Shown here in pieces: positions 1,588 through 19,130 of a stretch of DNA of 64,000 nucleotides (its first letter is position 1; each line of letters begins with the position of its first letter). This DNA is from Flammeovirga sp. SJP92. GTDB lineage: Bacteria > Bacteroidota > Bacteroidia > Cytophagales > Flammeovirgaceae. The notes beneath the pieces were generated by a model, which saw only the letters and a list, made by a program, of their open reading frames with translations, was not told where the DNA came from and did not search any database. Position numbers and translations under genes: made by a program. The stretch covers positions 62,001 through 126,000 of the forward strand of contig NZ_LQAQ01000018.1 in NCBI RefSeq assembly GCF_001583495.1, written 5' to 3'.

Positions 1588-4065
1588 TTAGAACTCCGGC
1601 GTAATAGCAAACATCACCCCATATTTCCTTGACGCATCTTCCTGGTAAGTAGCTCTGTATAAAAACATAACTTTCAGCATTCTGAAAATATTTTCTACTC
1701 CCCCACCTACTTCTACATAAGGTTTGGAAGGGTCTAAACTCTTGAAGCTTGCTTCATCACGATCCCATGGATTCACATTGGCAGCTAAGTTGGCATCGGA
1801 AACTCCTCCCCATAGTAGGTTAGCGATGCCAAATGCTTTAATATTCATTTTCTTCACTATAGGTATCCTATTGATAAAAAGTCCTTCAAAATGATGGAAC
1901 ATTCTAAGACCTACATATCTATCACTCATAAACTCTCCAAAATCCATAAGATTATAAGATGTTCTGTTATAAATATATTTTAGGTTATTTCCTCTATGTA
2001 CAAATAGCAACGGAAAAGGAACTGTTGAGGGAGTCCAACCTGAGGATACTACATAATCCATTCGGCCTAAGGCTCCAATTTTGAAACGGTGGCTCATTAA
2101 TAATTCTAATTTATGATAGCTATCTGTAGCATCAAATAGTGTAGGTAGACCTCGTTTATAAGAAAGAGTGATGGTTGGAAATTTCCCATTAGCGGCTATA
2201 TATCGATTAAGATGACGGCTTGAAACGTATCTTTTTCCAAAATCAAAAATAATGGAACCTGCCAACTCTGATGTAGTAATTTGTGAAAAAGCTAAAGTGT
2301 CCGTTAACTCAGTAGTGAAGTAATTCTCATCTTTATAAGTGAAACTACCTCTAAGTTGAATACCTTCTGCAACATATGAGCTCGCAATTACATTGACCTC
2401 ATCCAAGTAATAAGGATTTGTAAATGTACCCCAAGCTTGAGAAATCCATAGATAGGGATCTTGGCCAGGGAAGGTGATTCCTGCCCCTAAGCGTTGAAGG
2501 GAATGTTGTGCACGAGCATATAAAAAGGTCCAATTTTCATGATTGAGAATGTACTTTCCCATCACTCCCCATTTCCATTCCTGATCATTGGTACCATAAG
2601 CAACATATCCACCGCCTATTAGATTTGGGTTCCATTGTGTATTAGTCAATCCACCAAACTGCATTCGATTACCCTCCACATTATTTTGAGCATACAATAC
2701 TGTCAATGGCCCAAAATCAAAACCTCCTGCCCTGTAGTAACCTGTTACTCCAATATCAATCACCTTGGCAGTAGCTTTGACGGCTGGCATTTGCTTTACA
2801 GTATCCAACATGGCATATATTGTTGTATCTGTAGGTTGAGAATGCAACAAAGAATCTTCTGATGGAAAGGTATTTTTAGTATTGATATCTACCAAAAATT
2901 TTGTCCAATCTTTATTCAACTTACCTCCCACCCACATTTTGATGTTTTGTTGATAAGGAAACCAAATTTTGGAAGTGTCAATAGCCGCCAACTTTTGATC
3001 CACCGTAATGCTATCAATAAAGTTGATGGGAGAAGCTCGTCCGATTTCTGCTTTGACTTTTTTCACTGCAAAACCTTTATTTTCATCCGTAACCCAAAGT
3101 GTACCGCCAAAAGTCATATCGTTTTGGCGTCTTGGAACAAAGTCAATCCTATAGCACCAATCTCCATCCACTTTCTCATAAGTCACTAATTCAAAATCAT
3201 AATAATTTTTGAAAGTCGGATTCAATGGAGATGAAAAGTCTTTTGCTAAAAACCTCAACCACTGCTGATAGAAGTTGACTGTAGTTTTTTCATTATCTAA
3301 ACCTTGTCTGAATTGATTTTCAAACTCTGGCCCTAAGAAAGCTTCCTTATAATAAGATTGCTCCCTATCCTCTGCCCTTTGCGAAGCATGATAAGTTACT
3401 GTTTGTTCAGATGTTGAAGAATAAACAGGAATATTAGGCATTCCATCTTGGTTTATGGACAAAGTATCAATTTCCTCCATTCTTCGAATGGCTTCTTTCA
3501 CTAATTTTTGATTGAGAAATCTTTCATTTGTATCAGTGATGTATACATTTGTTCTTATGGAGGATTGATAGTTGAAATCTTTGTTGCCGTGGAAGTTATG
3601 GTCTGGAGAATTTTTCATGGCCAACCGAATGATTTCCCATGCTGGATTTTCATACCCTTTTCTTCCTACCACAACTTCTTGAAGTTTTTTTACGTCTTTG
3701 TGTAATCTAATGACATTGATTTCAGTAAATGACAATGAATCTACAGCGATAGATTGAGAGGTATAACCTAAACATGAAACATGAATAGTATCAGATGAAT
3801 TGACATATGGCAGAATAAATTCTCCATCAATTGAGGAAGTTGTCCCTTGAGAAATATGACTTAAAGTAAAATGTACATATCCAACTGGCAGTAATGTGTT
3901 TGCGTCAATTACTTTTCCTTTCAATTCATATTGATCTTGAGCACTAGCCTGATTTAGAATAAAATACCCTAAGAGAAAAGCAAAAAAATAGGATTTAGAC
4001 AGTATCGTTTCCCGGGTATGAGTATTTAACAAAAAAAACAAATTATTATTTTTTGATTCGAACAA
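1588..4065 (-). CDS. DUF5686 and carboxypeptidase-regulatory-like domain outer-membrane protein
   Basis: The 825-residue protein starts with a hydrophobic signal segment ending at QASAQ near residue 43. A CarboxypepD_reg-like beta-sandwich follows (about residues 48-135: LKGKVIDANTLLPVGYVHFT, SSIDGEFILPY). The rest is a DUF5686 domain with a predicted C-terminal beta-barrel ending in aromatic-rich strands (GVMFAITPEF). This architecture is common in Bacteroidota outer membranes and its role is unknown. No ATG precedes the signal peptide in frame; TTG at 4065 is the likeliest start but other TTG codons just downstream are possible. A MITE-like element lies directly upstream. Confidence 0.88.
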   Translation of the reverse strand: MFESKNNNLFFLLNTHTRETILSKSYFFAFLLGYFILNQASAQDQYELKGKVIDANTLLPVGYVHFTLSHISQGTTSSIDGEFILPYVNSSDTIHVSCLGYTSQSIAVDSLSFTEINVIRLHKDVKKLQEVVVGRKGYENPAWEIIRLAMKNSPDHNFHGNKDFNYQSSIRTNVYITDTNERFLNQKLVKEAIRRMEEIDTLSINQDGMPNIPVYSSTSEQTVTYHASQRAEDREQSYYKEAFLGPEFENQFRQGLDNEKTTVNFYQQWLRFLAKDFSSPLNPTFKNYYDFELVTYEKVDGDWCYRIDFVPRRQNDMTFGGTLWVTDENKGFAVKKVKAEIGRASPINFIDSITVDQKLAAIDTSKIWFPYQQNIKMWVGGKLNKDWTKFLVDINTKNTFPSEDSLLHSQPTDTTIYAMLDTVKQMPAVKATAKVIDIGVTGYYRAGGFDFGPLTVLYAQNNVEGNRMQFGGLTNTQWNPNLIGGGYVAYGTNDQEWKWGVMGKYILNHENWTFLYARAQHSLQRLGAGITFPGQDPYLWISQAWGTFTNPYYLDEVNVIASSYVAEGIQLRGSFTYKDENYFTTELTDTLAFSQITTSELAGSIIFDFGKRYVSSRHLNRYIAANGKFPTITLSYKRGLPTLFDATDSYHKLELLMSHRFKIGALGRMDYVVSSGWTPSTVPFPLLFVHRGNNLKYIYNRTSYNLMDFGEFMSDRYVGLRMFHHFEGLFINRIPIVKKMNIKAFGIANLLWGGVSDANLAANVNPWDRDEASFKSLDPSKPYVEVGGGVENIFRMLKVMFLYRATYQEDASRKYGVMFAITPEF

Positions 4066-4146
4066 TAATACAAGTTAATTTATTTTTAATGTTCTTTCTT
4101 ATGAGGAAGAAAAATATCTTGAATAACAGGTCAAAAAAAATCCTTC

Positions 4147-4308
4147 AGAGCATGTTTGGGATATATATTTTAGAAGTAAAAATTCGCCCTTTTGGGTTTG
4201 TGGGAAATTAATTTCAGAGAAAATAGTGATTCTATAGTTGATGAAATTAATAAACTCACGTTCTGAAAGGGTGGATTTTTACTAAAAAAGATGTTCCAAA
4301 CATGCTCT
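4147..4308. mobile_element. MITE-like 160-bp inverted-repeat element
   Basis: The ends are inverted repeats (AGAGCATGTTTGG at 4147 and its complement ending at 4308). A second pair of complementary blocks lies inside at nearly equal distance from each end (4175-4193 and 4265-4283, sharing AGTAAAAATyCrCCCTTT). The element has no ORF and sits in the spacer between the DUF5686 gene and the sulfatase gene. The nested symmetry fits a non-autonomous transposon; no clear target-site duplication is visible and there is no second copy in the window. Confidence 0.6.
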
Positions 4309-4347
4309 TATACATCATTCTTCAATACCTGAAGGAGTACCTTCAAC

Positions 4348-5724
4348 TTAAATAGACTTTCTATTCTCTGGTTTTCCTAACCATCTATTATCAGGTAATT
4401 TACTATCCCAGGAGTGGAACTCATTCAGTAACTCATCATAAATTTTCTTTTCAATTTCCTTCAAATCCATCGTTTCATTTGGATCAGTGGATAAATTAAA
4501 TAATTGAACACCTAATTCCTTTTCCCTTGTATTAAATGTGATTTTATAATCATCTTTACGTAATGCAAAATCTTTATCTCTTCTAAAAAACAGATGTTTA
4601 TGAGGTCTGCCTTCACTTTCTCCAGTGAGATAGGGAATTAAATTCACACCATCAAAATCATGTTGTGCATTATTACTCTCAACACCTAGTAAATGACTGA
4701 TTGTAGGTAAAATATCAAAAGTACTCACCGGATAATTATATGAAGCCCCTTTGGCTAATTTTGAAGGCCAGCTTATGATGTAAGGAACTCTAATACCTCC
4801 TTCATATGTATCACCTTTCCATCCTCTTAGTCCTCCCGTTCTTGACATTCTTCCCTCTTCACTTCTTGGAGAACCATTATCTGAAATGAATACGATAATA
4901 GTATTGTCATACACTCCTTTCTCCTTTAATGCTTCGATTATTTTACCAATTCCATCATCCATTGCCAGCGTCATACCTGCAAAAAGTTTACGCTCTTCTT
5001 CTTCAATATGCTCTAGTCGATCAAGGTATTTTTGAGGTACTTGCCAAGGATAATGTACGGCATTATAAGAGACCAAAGTAAAAAATGGATTAGCACTATT
5101 TTTATCTATAAAATTCACTACTTCCTCTGTAAATACCTCAGTGGTATATCCTTCATAATCCACCATTTCTTTATTTCTAAAGATTGGCCAGAAATCCCTG
5201 TTCTTAGTAAATTCTTTACTCGCCTTATAGTAATCATGAGAGCCATTTAAAAAACCATAAAACTCATCAAATCCTCTTGCATTAGGTCTAAGATGTTCAT
5301 CCAACCCCAAATGCCACTTTCCTACAAGCTGAGTAGTATAACCTTGTTTTTTTAGGATTTCAGCCATCATTGGCTGATCCACTGGAATACCTAAGTTGTT
5401 CAACTCCCCTGTCACCCAACGTTCCTCTGGAATATTTTCACCATAACCAAAACGCTGTTGGTAAACTCCCGTCATTAAACCTGATCTAGAGGGGCCACAA
5501 ACAGATGCCGTCACATAAGCTTGGCTAAATTGGACTCCTGATGAAGCCAAATGATCAATATTAGGTGTTCGGATGTCTTTCGCTCCTAGATACCCTGCAT
5601 CTCCCATTCCCATATCATCTGCAACAATCAAGACGATGTTTGGTTTTCTTTCCTCTGAAACAGGATGTTTTACACTACAAGAAAAATGTAATACAGTAAT
5701 TAGTAAGTAAAAATAGTTTCTCAT
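4348..5724 (-). CDS. Type I sulfatase (arylsulfatase family), lipoprotein
   Basis: A 458-residue sulfatase of the alkaline-phosphatase superfamily. The metal-binding start PNIVLIVADDMG (residues 28-39) and the active-site signature C76-G-P-S-R, in which the Cys is converted to formylglycine, are both intact. Further family motifs are GKWHLG and FISDNGSPR. A short hydrophobic N-terminus ending in FSC16 suggests a lipoprotein exported to the periplasm or surface. The substrate cannot be told from sequence; marine relatives act on sulfated algal polysaccharides, which fits the GH16 enzyme elsewhere in the window. The gene stands alone, and formylglycine formation would need a maturase encoded elsewhere. 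Confidence 0.92.
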   Translation of the reverse strand: MRNYFYLLITVLHFSCSVKHPVSEERKPNIVLIVADDMGMGDAGYLGAKDIRTPNIDHLASSGVQFSQAYVTASVCGPSRSGLMTGVYQQRFGYGENIPEERWVTGELNNLGIPVDQPMMAEILKKQGYTTQLVGKWHLGLDEHLRPNARGFDEFYGFLNGSHDYYKASKEFTKNRDFWPIFRNKEMVDYEGYTTEVFTEEVVNFIDKNSANPFFTLVSYNAVHYPWQVPQKYLDRLEHIEEEERKLFAGMTLAMDDGIGKIIEALKEKGVYDNTIIVFISDNGSPRSEEGRMSRTGGLRGWKGDTYEGGIRVPYIISWPSKLAKGASYNYPVSTFDILPTISHLLGVESNNAQHDFDGVNLIPYLTGESEGRPHKHLFFRRDKDFALRKDDYKITFNTREKELGVQLFNLSTDPNETMDLKEIEKKIYDELLNEFHSWDSKLPDNRWLGKPENRKSI

Positions 5725-5887
5725 TCTATATTGGTTTTATTTTAAGCAATTTCAAATAGAATGATTTCATTAAAAAATAATCAACTACTACAACACCTTA
5801 TCACTTGAAAGAACGACACATTCAATGTTGATTATTAATATATTAAAAACTAAAAAGTACTACACTACATCATCTACAAAAACATAA

Positions 5888-5908
5888 TGATGTGATAAAA
5901 ACACATCA
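5888..5908. other. Perfect 7-bp-arm palindrome in the sulfatase upstream region
   Basis: TGATGTG-N7-CACATCA lies between the sulfatase start and the M20 peptidase stop. It could be an operator for the sulfatase gene or a weak minus-strand terminator for the peptidase (TTATGTTTTT follows on that strand). Confidence 0.4.
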
Positions 5909-5996
5909 TCAATAAGTTGATTACGCTTTAGATAAAAGCTTATCCAACTCACTTAAAGAAATTGAATAAGCTTATCAATAAATAGAATCAATAATT

Positions 5997-7490
5997 TTAG
6001 TTTGTGGTATTTTTGATTAATTGCTGATAGAAACGAATTGAATTTTCAAACTCCACCACTCCGATTCTCTCATTCTCACCATGAATTGTATCAAGGTTTT
6101 CTTTATTTAAATGGAAAGGACAGAAACGTAAAACATTTTGTGAAATTTGAGAGTAATGTCTAGAATCTGAAGCGGCAATCATGATGTAAGGAGATACAAC
6201 AATGTCACCAAATGTCTCTTTTATAGATTGATCTAACAGTTTAAAAGAATCAGAATAGGCGTCTGAAATTGGTGCTGCTTCTGATTTATTGAGTATTCTT
6301 AATTTAACTCTTTCATTATTGACTTTCTCTTTAATGGAATTGAAAACATAATCTACTGTTTCACCTGGAAGAATTCTAATATTCAATACCGCATGTGCTT
6401 TCTTGGGAAGTACATTGCTTTTCATACCAGCACTTATAATAGTCGGGGCGATTGTTGTTCTTACCAAAGCATTTGAAGAAGGTGATTTTTCATACACCGA
6501 CATCAGTACGGGTTCTAATAAAGCTGAATTAGCAAATACTGTTTTCAAGCCAAAAGGCATTTCTGGCCCCACAAAATCAATAAAATCTTTCAAAGGAGGC
6601 GAGATATAAGAAGGAAAAGGATTATTGACCACGTCATTTACCGCTTTTGTCAATACACTAATTGCACTTTCAGTTTTAGGCATGGAAGCATGTCCTCCTT
6701 CAATGTCTGTTGACAGTTCTACCGTTAAAAATCCTTTTTCTGTAGTCCCCACCAAAGCCACATCTTTTTCCATTCCAGGTACTAAGCCTTGCGTGATATA
6801 ACCACCTTCATCCAGCACAAATTCTGCTTCAATACCTTGCTGTTTGAGGTAATGTGCCATTGAACTAGCTCCATGTGTACCATTGATTTCTTCATCATGA
6901 CCAAATGCCATATAGATGGTTCTTTTAGGTTTGAAACCTGATTTCATCAGCGACTGTACTGCTTCCAAAATTCCAATCACTCCCACTTTATCATCAATTG
7001 CTCCTCTCCCCCATATTACTCCATCCTTTATAGCACCACTGAAAGGAGGATATTTCCATTCTGCTATATTCTCTTCTAGAGCAGGCACCACGTCAAAGTG
7101 CGACATCAATACAATAGGCTTTAAAGAAGCATCACTACCTTCCCATTTTATCAAATAAGAATAAGTACCAAAAAGGTGATATTCAGAGTTACTGAAAACT
7201 GTCGGGTACGTATACTGAAGGTAATTTCTAAACTTGACAAACTCTGATGAATCAATCAAATCAGGATCATCATAAGAGACCGTTTTGATTTGTATTGCTT
7301 CTGAAAGATGATATTTAGCAGAGTCGCTTACATATCCAGAATCTAATCTTGAAATTTTTGATTGGCGGGAATCAAATAAAAACAAATTTCCAAAAATATA
7401 AAGAGAGGCAATAGTTATAGTGCCTGATAAAATTCCTACAAAACGCTTCATAGAAAGGGAGAGTTTGAGATGTAAAGAGTTTGTATTCAT
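5997..7490 (-). CDS. M20 family metallopeptidase, membrane anchored
   Basis: The protein has the M20 (carboxypeptidase PM20D1-like) signature series: MSHFDVVPA (first metal-ligand His), the IWGRGAIDDKVG bridging Asp, GHDEEINGTHGA (catalytic Glu pair) and a late ASDSRHYS metal-ligand His. A single hydrophobic segment near the N-terminus (IASLYIFGNLFLF) suggests anchoring or export. It likely hydrolyses peptides or N-acyl amino acids. I chose the ATG at 7490; the frame extends to a GTG at 7547, and another ATG at 7451 (MKRFVGIL) sits right before the hydrophobic segment and is a good alternative. It lies downstream of the kinase gene on the same strand. Confidence 0.85.
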   Translation of the reverse strand: MNTNSLHLKLSLSMKRFVGILSGTITIASLYIFGNLFLFDSRQSKISRLDSGYVSDSAKYHLSEAIQIKTVSYDDPDLIDSSEFVKFRNYLQYTYPTVFSNSEYHLFGTYSYLIKWEGSDASLKPIVLMSHFDVVPALEENIAEWKYPPFSGAIKDGVIWGRGAIDDKVGVIGILEAVQSLMKSGFKPKRTIYMAFGHDEEINGTHGASSMAHYLKQQGIEAEFVLDEGGYITQGLVPGMEKDVALVGTTEKGFLTVELSTDIEGGHASMPKTESAISVLTKAVNDVVNNPFPSYISPPLKDFIDFVGPEMPFGLKTVFANSALLEPVLMSVYEKSPSSNALVRTTIAPTIISAGMKSNVLPKKAHAVLNIRILPGETVDYVFNSIKEKVNNERVKLRILNKSEAAPISDAYSDSFKLLDQSIKETFGDIVVSPYIMIAASDSRHYSQISQNVLRFCPFHLNKENLDTIHGENERIGVVEFENSIRFYQQLIKNTTN

Positions 7491-16959: not shown

Positions 16960-17006
16960 AAGAAGCCACTTTTATAGAGTTAATTCCATAAAAGTGGCTT
17001 CTTTAT
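16960..17006. terminator. Bidirectional terminator
   Basis: AGAAGCCACTTTTA pairs with TAAAAGTGGCTTCT around a 13-nt loop, with a T-rich stretch on the right. It lies between the convergent patatin and 7TM-DISM genes and can serve both. Confidence 0.88.
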
Positions 17007-17028: not shown

Positions 17029-18909
17029 TTAATCCTTCAAAATCAATTCCTCCCAGCCTTTGTGCTTTAATTTCTCTTTCGAGCCCAACTCTTCTGTTTT
17101 GATTTGCATGGTCTCTTTAATTTTCTTTGAGAATTTCCAGCAGGTATTTTGTCTCATTTCTAAGATTTCTGAGAGTTTTGTAGAAGAAATATCTCCATCT
17201 TTAGCAAAGACAATAAACACCATATAAAACGCTTTTTGAATTGGGAAATGCAGTCTATGGAATAATGTCCCTGCCGTTACAGACTCATTATAATTACATT
17301 TTTTACACCTTCTGCTATTCACTCCCGCTCCTTTAGCATAAGTATCATTGCCACATTTTTTACATTGGAATCCATTCTTCCATTTTATTTCTTCCAAATA
17401 GGCATAACAACTTTCATCTGAAGGAAACATTTTTTCAAATTCATCAAAAGTCACTTCCTGCATCAATACTCTGGCAGACTCAAGTTGCTCAACATCCTCG
17501 TGCAGTTGCTCATTTTCTACCTTAAGTTGTGCATTCATCTCCTGAATTTGCTTTCTATGTTCATTCAACTGATCATTGACCCATTGCAATTCATCATTTT
17601 TGAGGGCAATGATCTCCTTTTGCTTTTCAATTTCTTCCGTTCTTTCTTGAACTTTATCTTCAATTATTTTTTCTCTGATCTGTAAATTTTTGATCAATTG
17701 TCCCTGTGCCTGCTCTTTCTCTTCTTTAAGGATTTTAAAACGTTGGAATTGCCCCAAAGTCATAAAAAGTCCTGTCAATAATAAACCTACATTATAAGAA
17801 TAGACAACGACAATGGCATGTGATATAAAGATTTCATAAGCACGAAGCACTTGCAGACAAAGTCCTATTATGATAACCAAATACCCCAAAAAGAAGTAAG
17901 TCACCTTTACTTCTGACCTTTTTATATCCAAAAGCATATAGAATAAAATGATCATAAAAGGCACCAAGAAAGTAGGCAACTGCCACAGACTATCATTAAA
18001 AGATTTGAAAACTATAAAGTAGAAAGTGTTTAAGAGCGTGATTCCCCAAATTGTAACATAGGTCTTGAATGATTTTGTTCTAATTTTCAATACACTCACA
18101 CTCAACGCCACAATAGACAGCATACTCAAAGTAGAAGAATAACGCATCAGAATATAATTCCAATGTGGATGATTGGCAAAAAGGTACTGTGCCGCCAAAT
18201 TATCTTCAGAAAGGTCTACACAAATACTCGCTAATAAAAATGCCGTAAGCAATAAAATATCTTTATCCTTGAGCGTAAGCAACAAAAGTACTGTCGCTAA
18301 AATTAGACAAATCAAAATTCCATAATTCGAACCTAAAAGCATGTACTCAGTAATGGAATAAGAAAATAAATTATGTGCTCGACTAAGTTTATAAAACAGA
18401 ACATTGTTGAACTCACTATTGTATTTCAAGAAAACCGTAACCACCTCATCATCACCCGACTCTATACCAGTAATAGGAAAAATGATATTTTTGTGTTTAA
18501 ATTTTCTTTTACTGAAATCATGATCATAACCTGCAGTTTCAGCATAAATCACGGGTTTTTTACCTACTTGTACATAAGCTTTCACACTGCCTACATGGCT
18601 GTCGGGCACCTCAAAAAACCATTGATCCATACCTAGAGGTTTACCTTGAATCTGAAGTTTCACCCAGTAGCTTTTCACTCCTTTTGAAAACAACACCATG
18701 TCTTTTTGTGGTGTTTGAAAATGATTGTCTGGGTCTGTCAGGATATCAGATATCTCAATATTGTTATCAGGATCTTCTAACAAAAGAATCTTTGACGAAG
18801 GAATAAATACCTCATCCTTAAAAAAAGGAATTTCTACTGGAACTAGATTTTGGCCAAAGGTATTGGTAGTTAGAAAAAATGATAAAAAGATAAGTAAATA
18901 ATTATTCAT
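17029..18909 (-). CDS. 7TM-DISM receptor fused to an IS1595-type zinc-ribbon/HTH domain
   Basis: 626 residues. Order: signal peptide (1-19); an extracytoplasmic 7TMR-DISMED2-like beta-sandwich (about 30-165: SYWVKLQIQGK, QWFFEVPD); seven hydrophobic helices (about 185-395); a long charged coiled coil (about 395-480); then, from residue 499, a domain matching the N-terminal part of IS1595-family transposases. That part has a zinc ribbon (C516-x2-C519 and C535-x2-C538) followed by the SVTAGTLFHRLHFPIQKAFY helix region and an HTH-like KLSEILEMRQNTCWKFSKKI. The catalytic DDE (ISXO2) domain is absent, so this looks like a domesticated DNA-binding output domain on a membrane receptor. It stands alone between two terminators. 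Confidence 0.9.
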   Translation of the reverse strand: MNNYLLIFLSFFLTTNTFGQNLVPVEIPFFKDEVFIPSSKILLLEDPDNNIEISDILTDPDNHFQTPQKDMVLFSKGVKSYWVKLQIQGKPLGMDQWFFEVPDSHVGSVKAYVQVGKKPVIYAETAGYDHDFSKRKFKHKNIIFPITGIESGDDEVVTVFLKYNSEFNNVLFYKLSRAHNLFSYSITEYMLLGSNYGILICLILATVLLLLTLKDKDILLLTAFLLASICVDLSEDNLAAQYLFANHPHWNYILMRYSSTLSMLSIVALSVSVLKIRTKSFKTYVTIWGITLLNTFYFIVFKSFNDSLWQLPTFLVPFMIILFYMLLDIKRSEVKVTYFFLGYLVIIIGLCLQVLRAYEIFISHAIVVVYSYNVGLLLTGLFMTLGQFQRFKILKEEKEQAQGQLIKNLQIREKIIEDKVQERTEEIEKQKEIIALKNDELQWVNDQLNEHRKQIQEMNAQLKVENEQLHEDVEQLESARVLMQEVTFDEFEKMFPSDESCYAYLEEIKWKNGFQCKKCGNDTYAKGAGVNSRRCKKCNYNESVTAGTLFHRLHFPIQKAFYMVFIVFAKDGDISSTKLSEILEMRQNTCWKFSKKIKETMQIKTEELGSKEKLKHKGWEELILKD

Positions 18910-19074
18910 AAGTAATTATAACGAAACGCTGTTAGTAGAAGCACCAACCATTCCGAATTGAATTGGCACAAATAAAGTAAGTAATACAAAACTCTTTCTA
19001 TAAGCTAGAATTACTTCAATGAGTAAATGTATAAATAATTTCTATTTATTTAAATGATACCTTACCTTTTAAAC

Positions 19075-19112
19075 AAAAAAATAGCCACAGAACGCATTCC
19101 ATGGCTATTTTT
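19075..19112 (-). terminator. Rho-independent terminator after the IscA-type gene
   Basis: AAAAAATAGCCA and TGGCTATTTTTT form a 12-bp stem around a 14-nt loop, giving a T tract on the minus strand 19 nt after the gene. Confidence 0.88.
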
Positions 19113-19130
19113 TGTTTTAAGTGATTTTTC

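Follow-up and report, generated by a model that had tools for sequence, protein, structure and literature searches.

A 7TMR-DISM receptor with a tail derived from an IS1595 transposase head, a probable membrane-bound regulator of polysaccharide utilization loci in Flammeovirga and its relatives

The stretch of DNA analysed here, referred to as the window, comprises 64,000 nucleotides of contig NZ_LQAQ01000018.1 (positions 62,001 to 126,000) of Flammeovirga sp. SJP92, and harbours a gene for a receptor in which a 7TMR-DISM sensor is joined by a long coiled coil to the zinc ribbon and helix-turn-helix (HTH)-like head of an IS1595-type transposase. Judged from sequence comparisons, this receptor is probably a membrane-bound one-component transcription regulator of a laminarin-type polysaccharide utilization locus (PUL), which it would here control in trans. 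PULs are the means by which Bacteroidota eat algal and plant polysaccharides. The receptor family would add to the PUL regulators a class with a candidate operator and predicted targets, present in receptor form in at least about a quarter of the sampled genomes of the order. Handles beginning with G, C and L denote genomes, contigs and loci, respectively.

The domain order given in an earlier note made from the DNA letters of the window, that is, a DISMED2-7TM sensor, a coiled coil and a zinc ribbon with the IS1595 helix region, was confirmed by Pfam, by NCBIfam and by a structure model (Table 1). The 626-aa protein scored 66.5 bits for PF07695 and 65.3 bits for PF07696 (gathering scores 29 and 22, respectively), and 41.5 bits for Zn_ribbon_IS1595 (PF12760) relative to a gathering score of 25.4. 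The NCBIfam model transpos_IS1595 (NF033547) aligned by its positions 3-53 of 215 with receptor residues 554-603, at E = 6.5e-5 (22.9 bits) for the whole receptor and E = 6.2e-6 (26.2 bits) for the tail alone. Both scores are below the cut-off of 75, as expected if the head alone is present. These matches agree with the transposase origin that the note had proposed for the tail, and the nuclease part was missing as claimed, since no match to DDE_Tnp_IS1595 was found in the receptor up to E = 1 in the Pfam search. The DDE_Tnp_IS1595 domain does occur in the related proteins L108 and L047. A full-length structure model built on an alignment of 46 sequences displayed a mean predicted local distance difference test score (pLDDT) of 81, with the tail near 90. 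Modelled alone, the tail reached a pLDDT of 91.5 and a predicted template modelling score of 0.84, and the helices that follow the ribbon (80-92, 99-106 and 110-131 in tail numbering) are compatible with an HTH. The closest solved structure to the sensor part of the model was the periplasmic domain of RetS (3jyb, E = 9e-6).

The full-length model has an unbroken helix over residues 371-459, and pLDDT drops below 50 at residues 458-482. Across 46 receptors the lengths between conserved anchors differ solely by multiples of seven, the spacing from K395 to R423 being 29, 36 or 50 residues and that from R423 to C516 being 80, 87, 94 or 101. This is the pattern expected of a dimeric signalling helix that needs to stay in register. 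The coiled coil resembles the S-helix, which according to the accessible part of PMC1592074 connects sensors to outputs, among them HTH domains at low frequency.

When the genome of the window was searched with the tail, four receptor copies were found, one in the window and three on other contigs, and the two remaining matches were very weak (E = 0.34 and 0.73). All nine Flammeovirga genomes, including this one, contained a tail match in a frame of more than 600 aa, and a tail match was present in 14 of the 18 genomes of the family Flammeovirgaceae. Within the order, 125 of 291 sampled genomes matched the tail at E ≤ 1e-8, transposase-only genomes included, and the best E was below 1e-25 in 103 (our count). 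A receptor-length frame (450 aa or more) was found in at least 69 of the 291 genomes, with five others from a second listing, and the frames among the matches listed for the order were mostly 600-700 aa long. In a sample of the phylum, 33 of 395 genomes matched at E ≤ 1e-15, and among the places listed outside the order only G533 and G424 displayed receptor-length frames. The named genomes with the receptor form (80 loci) belong to Flammeovirga, Flexithrix, Roseivirga, Algoriphagus, Echinicola and Marivirga, and many metagenome-assembled genomes also carry it. Each of the two DISM domains was found in 55 of 57 scanned long proteins, and the zinc ribbon in 51 (E ≤ 0.01). The cysteines C516, C519, C535 and C538, recognised in the note as a zinc ribbon, are invariant in all 57 aligned long proteins, and the HTH core of the tail is strongly conserved among family members. 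No kinase, receiver, AraC, sigma or FecR family was among those matched by the 57 scanned members.

The genes of the family are frequently followed by a SusC-type gene, where SusC is defined by a blastp match to a SusC-type reference from the genome of the window and not by a Pfam call. Linkage was counted from 113 long proteins, which formed 87 clusters at 90% identity; 82 clusters had at least 1.5 kb downstream and the five with less were excluded. The proteins were drawn from the 80 named-genome loci, from 35 further stretches picked without knowledge of their neighbours (some proved near-duplicates of the 80 loci), from five Flammeovirga orthologues taken on purpose (one, G006, was already present as L094) and from loci already at hand. 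A SusC-type gene starts at most 1 kb downstream on the same strand in 44 of the 82 clusters, at a median distance of 273 bp; two further clusters have SusC at 1-2.5 kb and two have a sulfatase as the next gene. The number of SusC genes per genome (11, 15, 19 and 34 in four genomes of other genera, and 36 or more in Flammeovirga) is too low to account for this linkage. In a comparison set of 25 short tails and transposases, some of them near contig ends, SusC was found downstream of L168 only, which is cut by the contig edge and probably represents a truncated receptor. Two of the other receptors in the genome of the window sit within SusC-SusD-lipoprotein-receptor-sulfatase loci. Neighbouring enzymes were glycoside hydrolases (GH) of families GH16, GH3 and GH81 in Flammeovirga, GH16 at the G266 locus, and PF10091 together with GH3 in G128.

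The intergenic region between regulator and SusC contains, in all five linked Flammeovirga genomes, the word TTTTTTTAA[A/G]TGATA twice, exactly 80 bp apart, in DNA that has otherwise diverged across the five. A repeat search revealed a related word paired approximately 64-67 bp apart in several other genera. The motif set consisted of 57 regions, or 47 once near-duplicates were removed. Expectation maximization from random words gave a T-run (TTTTTTTta.g.aAAA) as its best class and ranked.a.TGTTTTTTAaGTG lower, and the matrix obtained from the 43 non-Flammeovirga regions reads TGTTTTTta.gcG.aA. With this matrix the best pair reached at least 18 bits in 35 of the 47 regions, partly in-sample since 43 are the training set, against 3.1% of shuffles. 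Six-fold cross-validation was done with the spacing fixed to 62-70 or 78-82, and at 16 bits or more it retained 25 of the 47 held-out regions (21 outside Flammeovirga), compared with none of 20 other SusC upstream regions and 2.2% of shuffles. At 12 bits or more the corresponding figures were 30 of 47, 1 of 20 and 11%. The control upstream regions were 1.05 kb each, controls and shuffles were scored by the first-fold matrix only, and the start word of the matrix runs was modelled on the Flammeovirga repeat, which makes the cross-validation not fully independent for those four regions. The spacings of the cross-validated pairs peaked at 64-67 and at 80. As 11 controls were G+C-rich, the test was rerun with eight more SusC upstream regions from the genome of the window. 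Below 42% G+C, 25 of 42 regions reached 16 bits against none of 16 controls by the first-fold matrix and 2 of 16 by the best of six matrices, these controls being several times longer than the linked regions. The same kind of pair is found in a different gene arrangement: in G005 a paralogous receptor is divergent from a gene for GH81 with a carbohydrate-binding module (CBM6), and the DNA between them displays a pair at a spacing of 80 bp (22.0 bits). This arrangement recurs in G007, the divergent gene being named by resemblance, with a pair 79 bp apart (19.9 bits). The best chance pair within the 64-kb window scored 19.5 bits.

Several observations weigh against the regulator reading and against the repeats as its operator. 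Neither SusC nor a sulfatase lies directly downstream in 34 of the 82 clusters, and 22 of the 47 SusC-linked regions stay below 16 bits. Eleven of the 20 controls came from two G+C-rich genomes, in which the linked regions scored low as well (L191 12.4, L194 2.0), and two other SusC upstream regions of the genome of the window reach 18.1 and 20.4 bits by the best of six matrices. No pair was found upstream of SusC in ten stretches with the regulator inside the operon (best 13.2 bits; the SusC start was not located in two), and none that is convincing near the receptor gene of the window. The Bacteroidota promoter box TAnnTTTG was found downstream of the repeats at chance level (5 of 33, against 18% of shuffles), so that an activator and a repressor are indistinguishable by it. 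T-rich motifs in A+T-rich DNA generally need care. Regarding the tail, a Foldseek search of its model against the PDB gave no match at E ≤ 0.001, the weak matches above that limit being ribosomal zinc ribbons, NMB0573 and IclR, and its sequence profile reached a best E of only 0.085 against the PDB (IclR 0.13).

Among the 291 genomes a strict version of the pair pattern matched in 23, and directly behind a receptor tail in three (G234, G279 and G035). The other matches were scattered, including a repeat array in G182, and a reversed-pattern control gave 14 hits (our count), so the strict pattern alone is no specific genome scanner. The Flammeovirga word is also present singly at other places of the genomes, and of the four exact 15-base sites in the genome of the window two precede other SusC genes, by 458 and 575 bp. 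In the same genome a 354-aa frame is preceded by two of the Flammeovirga operator words at a distance of 23 bp (L213:1512 and 1535; G000:C93). In the window a single operator-like word, TTTATTTAAATGATA (19045-19059, + strand), is located upstream of the receptor gene on the opposite strand and may reflect either autoregulation or chance. We also noticed a CRISPR-like array (resembling clustered regularly interspaced short palindromic repeats) with a 66-base period at G051:C129:10502-11503, the repeat of which fits the operator pattern, apparently by chance.

The receptor gene of the window appears to have been separated from its probable target. The gene order around it is conserved with F. 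pacifica, where the receptor is followed by SusC-SusD; in the window a convergent patatin-like gene follows. The orthologue precedes SusC in five of the nine Flammeovirga genomes (G003, G005, G006, G007 and G010). It has no SusC behind it in the genome of the window or in G004, G008 and G009, and the orthologue tails of these last three are 97% identical to that of the window. At the linked loci of G006 and G010 the next genes encode SusD, a PKD-type lipoprotein, GH3 and GH16 (by Pfam on G006 only), a set that reads as laminarin-like. The orthologous SusC of the window genome was located on contig C61 and is 71-78% identical to three of the linked SusC. It lies behind a gene resembling that of phosphoenolpyruvate carboxykinase and is followed by SusD-, PKD-, GH3- and two GH16-like genes, all named by resemblance; the 20 kb examined contained no receptor. 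In G004, G008 and G009, too, the best SusC match is found on a different contig, and a GH16 homologue lies no more than 10 kb from it. The four unlinked SusC promoters align with the linked ones and have kept both sites, 79 bp apart and with small changes. A matrix built on the linked genomes (ten sites) gives all four a score of 28.3-29.9 bits, against at most 10.9 bits in eight other SusC upstream regions of the window genome. The homology of the unlinked to the linked promoters counts against giving this score full weight, as the likeness is partly ancestry. Between the two sites an opposite-orientation word, TACACTTAT, is conserved by eye, in the form TACGCTTTAT in G005 and G007. Most simply, receptor and PUL would have come apart in the group of the window genome, G004, G008 and G009, and the receptor would now act in trans on the unlinked target.

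The tail is not confined to 7TM receptors. In L129 and L141, the remaining two of the 57 scanned proteins, and in L049, the same tail is joined to Reg_prop and Y_Y_Y sensors without a kinase; such sensors are the kind used by hybrid two-component PUL regulators. Downstream of L049 a SusC follows at 515 bp, and then SusD. A maximum-likelihood tree of tails and heads (102 sequences, 135 columns) was made, with supports on unrooted splits. In it the 86 receptor tails (79 labelled 7TM by length, five of Reg_prop length, L046 and the truncated L168) formed one clade against all transposases and nine standalone tails, with a support of 89.6/98. Tails of Reg_prop length occupied two places, L049 with L187 and L129, L141, L183 and L184 together (57/48). 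We read this as a single capture of a transposase head by receptors with subsequent swapping of sensors, by which the tail would have become an interchangeable output module. It would be a bacterial case of a transposase DNA-binding head adopted by receptors and shared among different membrane sensors, with mobile relatives that persist in a sister species. In this sister species, G004, the tail has 20 matches in short frames (154-190 aa; our count), and its IS1595-type head is 41-42% identical to the receptor tail over 115 aa. In the five G004 elements examined, the contig ends were reached just past the start of the DDE part.

These G004 copies (L042-L045 and L051) are partial, located at contig ends, and have the left end GGTATCTAAACTTAGATCGCC. 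Another form of the tail is L046:3901-4611 (G005:C1), a protein of 236 aa apparently composed of a single membrane segment, a coiled coil and the tail; its gene is divergent from a GH18 + GH19 chitinase gene, and a related match is found at G007:C1:948139-948525. Standalone tails of about 144 aa with zinc ribbon and HTH are present in Prolixibacteraceae and relatives (L131, L135, L140, L143, L148, L150, L153, L156 and others), in several loci with a convergent methyltransferase-like gene, named by resemblance, as the next one. Their place in the tree, on which a shared origin with the receptor tails depends, had a support of 1.1/34, and they may represent another use of this kind of head, as a soluble protein.

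The function of the receptor may be depicted as follows. The DISMED2 domain would bind a beta-glucan fragment of laminarin type in the periplasm, a ligand that is a guess from the neighbouring enzymes. The 7TM domain and the in-register dimeric coiled coil would pass the ligand-induced change inward, and the two repeats in front of SusC, spaced by 64-67 or 79-81 bp, would be contacted by the two tails of one dimer, or of two dimers. Binding would probably activate the SusC operon, which in the species of the window would be SusC-SusD-PKD-GH3-GH16-GH16 on contig C61, controlled in trans. By domain content, sensor, transmembrane and candidate DNA-binding domains are present in one chain without phosphotransfer domains, and the one-component membrane-bound regulator suggested in the earlier note appears to be the likeliest role. 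SusC linkage, paired repeats, reuse of the tail and separation from the probable target lie outside the window and were missed by the note.

It is unlikely that the repeats are instead part of the promoter itself or the site of a different PUL regulator, with a tail that has lost DNA binding and serves in dimerisation or protein contacts, and a receptor that acts via a partner. The absence of the repeats from some linked loci, and the single words elsewhere, including those upstream of two other SusC genes of the window genome, would fit such an explanation. The explanation is opposed by the strong conservation of zinc cysteines and HTH core, by the failure of all 20 other SusC upstream regions to reach 16 bits with the matrix used, by the genus-spaced pair between receptor and divergent GH81 gene in G005 and G007, though the best chance pair of the window scores 19.5 bits, and by the lack of kinase, receiver or sigma domains among the families matched by the 57 members. 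That the tail mainly tethers PUL DNA to the membrane, where SusC/SusD and the enzymes would be transcribed and exported with little sensing, is very unlikely, even if it would fit a membrane-held putative DNA-binding domain and a predicted target operon for exported proteins, since the conserved periplasmic sensor domain and the heptad register of the coiled coil favour signal transfer over tethering. Tethering is also compatible with the membrane-bound regulator, the two being not exclusive. That the receptor gene ends in a pseudogene remnant or in an IS1595 element inserted by chance has next to no likelihood. Related heads do abound in short frames of the sister genome G004, but the fusion in all nine genus members and across the order, together with the single clade of receptor tails, refutes such an event, and no transposase is among the open reading frames listed beside the receptor gene. 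The note had likewise argued against it, and both checks that it had proposed as refuting its reading turned out in favour of that reading: the tail matches IS1595 heads, the fusion is widespread and not peculiar to one genome with a transposase remnant downstream, and the tail search of the genome of the window gave, as reported above, receptors and two very weak matches.

The 7TMR-DISM class was reportedly defined in a paper of 2003. As regulators of PULs, hybrid two-component systems, ECF-sigma/anti-sigma pairs (extracytoplasmic function) and SusR-type proteins are usually named. The present family is like these in adjoining PULs and in the Reg_prop/Y_Y_Y sensors of L049, L129 and L141, and differs from hybrid two-component and ECF-sigma regulators in that the 57 scanned members matched no kinase, receiver, AraC, sigma or FecR family. 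It shares the zinc ribbon and HTH head with IS1595 transposases (the G004 elements, L108, L265 and others), unlike which it has no DDE domain found and no terminal repeats seen, and is fused to a receptor. ZBED6 is eukaryotic, hAT-type and soluble, unlike the receptor. It is similar in that a transposon-derived DNA-binding protein, in mammals from a domesticated DNA transposon, was reused as a regulator, as stated in the accessible part of PMC2780926. The note named kinase, cyclase and phosphatase domains as the ends of known 7TM-DISM proteins, which was incomplete, since the accessible part of PMC8092284 describes 7TMR-DISM with a ChiS DNA-binding domain in Proteobacteria. In one architecture published there, a DISM 7TM is followed by cytoplasmic output with the DNA-binding domain at the C-terminus, as in the present receptor; a 7TMR-DISM receptor with a DNA-binding tail is thus not new in principle. 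The differences relative to that part of PMC8092284 are that the output is an IS1595 transposase head, that the family belongs to Bacteroidota and that it is linked to SusC and a paired repeat. Transmembrane transcription regulators are widespread according to the accessible part of PMC10269533, and the ToxR/TcpP-type ones resemble the receptor in that a single chain unites a sensor, a membrane part and a DNA-binding domain and would exert control while bound to the membrane. They differ in that the receptor has seven helices, its C-terminus inside, a long coiled coil and a transposase-derived zinc ribbon with HTH; neither 'zinc' nor 'transposase' occurs in the main text of PMC10269533. Literature searches, with most subscription papers outside their scope, found no mention of Zn_ribbon_IS1595 and, by titles and abstract starts, no description of this architecture. 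The transposase-derived output, its reuse on several sensors, the SusC association and the paired site were not found described.

A more speculative extension of the regulator reading, which we consider quite unlikely, is that the captured head reads a site like a transposon end, that the paired operator copies are bound like two transposon ends, and that the receptor dimer would thereby hold a small DNA loop, anchored at the membrane and about six or seven to eight turns long, that switches the PUL promoter. If true, a genetic switch controlled by sugar would have arisen from a transposon synapse. The ends of ten related IS1595 loci were aligned, some of them near-duplicates and with one arm missing for L268 and G004, and an equally placed inner block of their terminal repeats looks, by eye, like the operator core TAARYG. 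L271, L273 and L275 gave no clear IS ends, and L277 and L279 proved to be receptor fragments. As an IS1595 terminal repeat the operator was rejected, since the similarity of the matrices was insignificant (p = 0.16).

The clean terminators that the note had placed on both sides of the gene hold in part: an inverted repeat is present on either side (Table 1), and neither was listed by a terminator scan that covered loops of 3-8 only, those of the two repeats being 12 and 14.

Table 1. Features of the receptor gene and its flanks in the window.
Feature	Position	Strand	Basis
Full gene, receptor with transposase-head tail	17029..18909	-	Open reading frame, ATG start, 626 aa
Probable signal peptide, N-terminal hydrophobic segment, residues 1-19	18853..18909	-	Sequence and helix 2-17 in model; inferred without a signal-peptide program
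7TMR-DISMED2 periplasmic sensor, residues 42-171	18397..18786	-	PF07696, E 7.1e-18
Seven-transmembrane domain (7TMR-DISM_7TM), residues 188-386	17752..18348	-	PF07695, E 4e-18
Signalling coiled coil, residues about 387-482	17464..17751	-	Helix in model; heptad length differences
IS1595-type zinc ribbon, residues 496-540 (C516, C519, C535, C538)	17290..17424	-	PF12760, E 1.3e-10
HTH-like helices, residues about 557-608	17086..17241	-	NF033547 positions 3-53; tail-model helices
15-bp perfect inverted repeat, loop 12, between receptor gene and convergent patatin-like gene	16961..17002	.	By eye
12-13-bp inverted repeat, loop 14, between HesB/ErpA-like gene and receptor gene	19076..19114	.	By eye

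Two further loci of the family deserve mention. L100 contains a tandem pair of receptors (2637-4508 and 4498-6465) with an 11-base overlap. At L057:4938-11000 (G005:C3) a family receptor is followed, without SusC, by a pfkB-family kinase, a permease-like protein and an ADP-ribosylglycohydrolase, and the signal of this receptor is perhaps a nucleoside or ribose.

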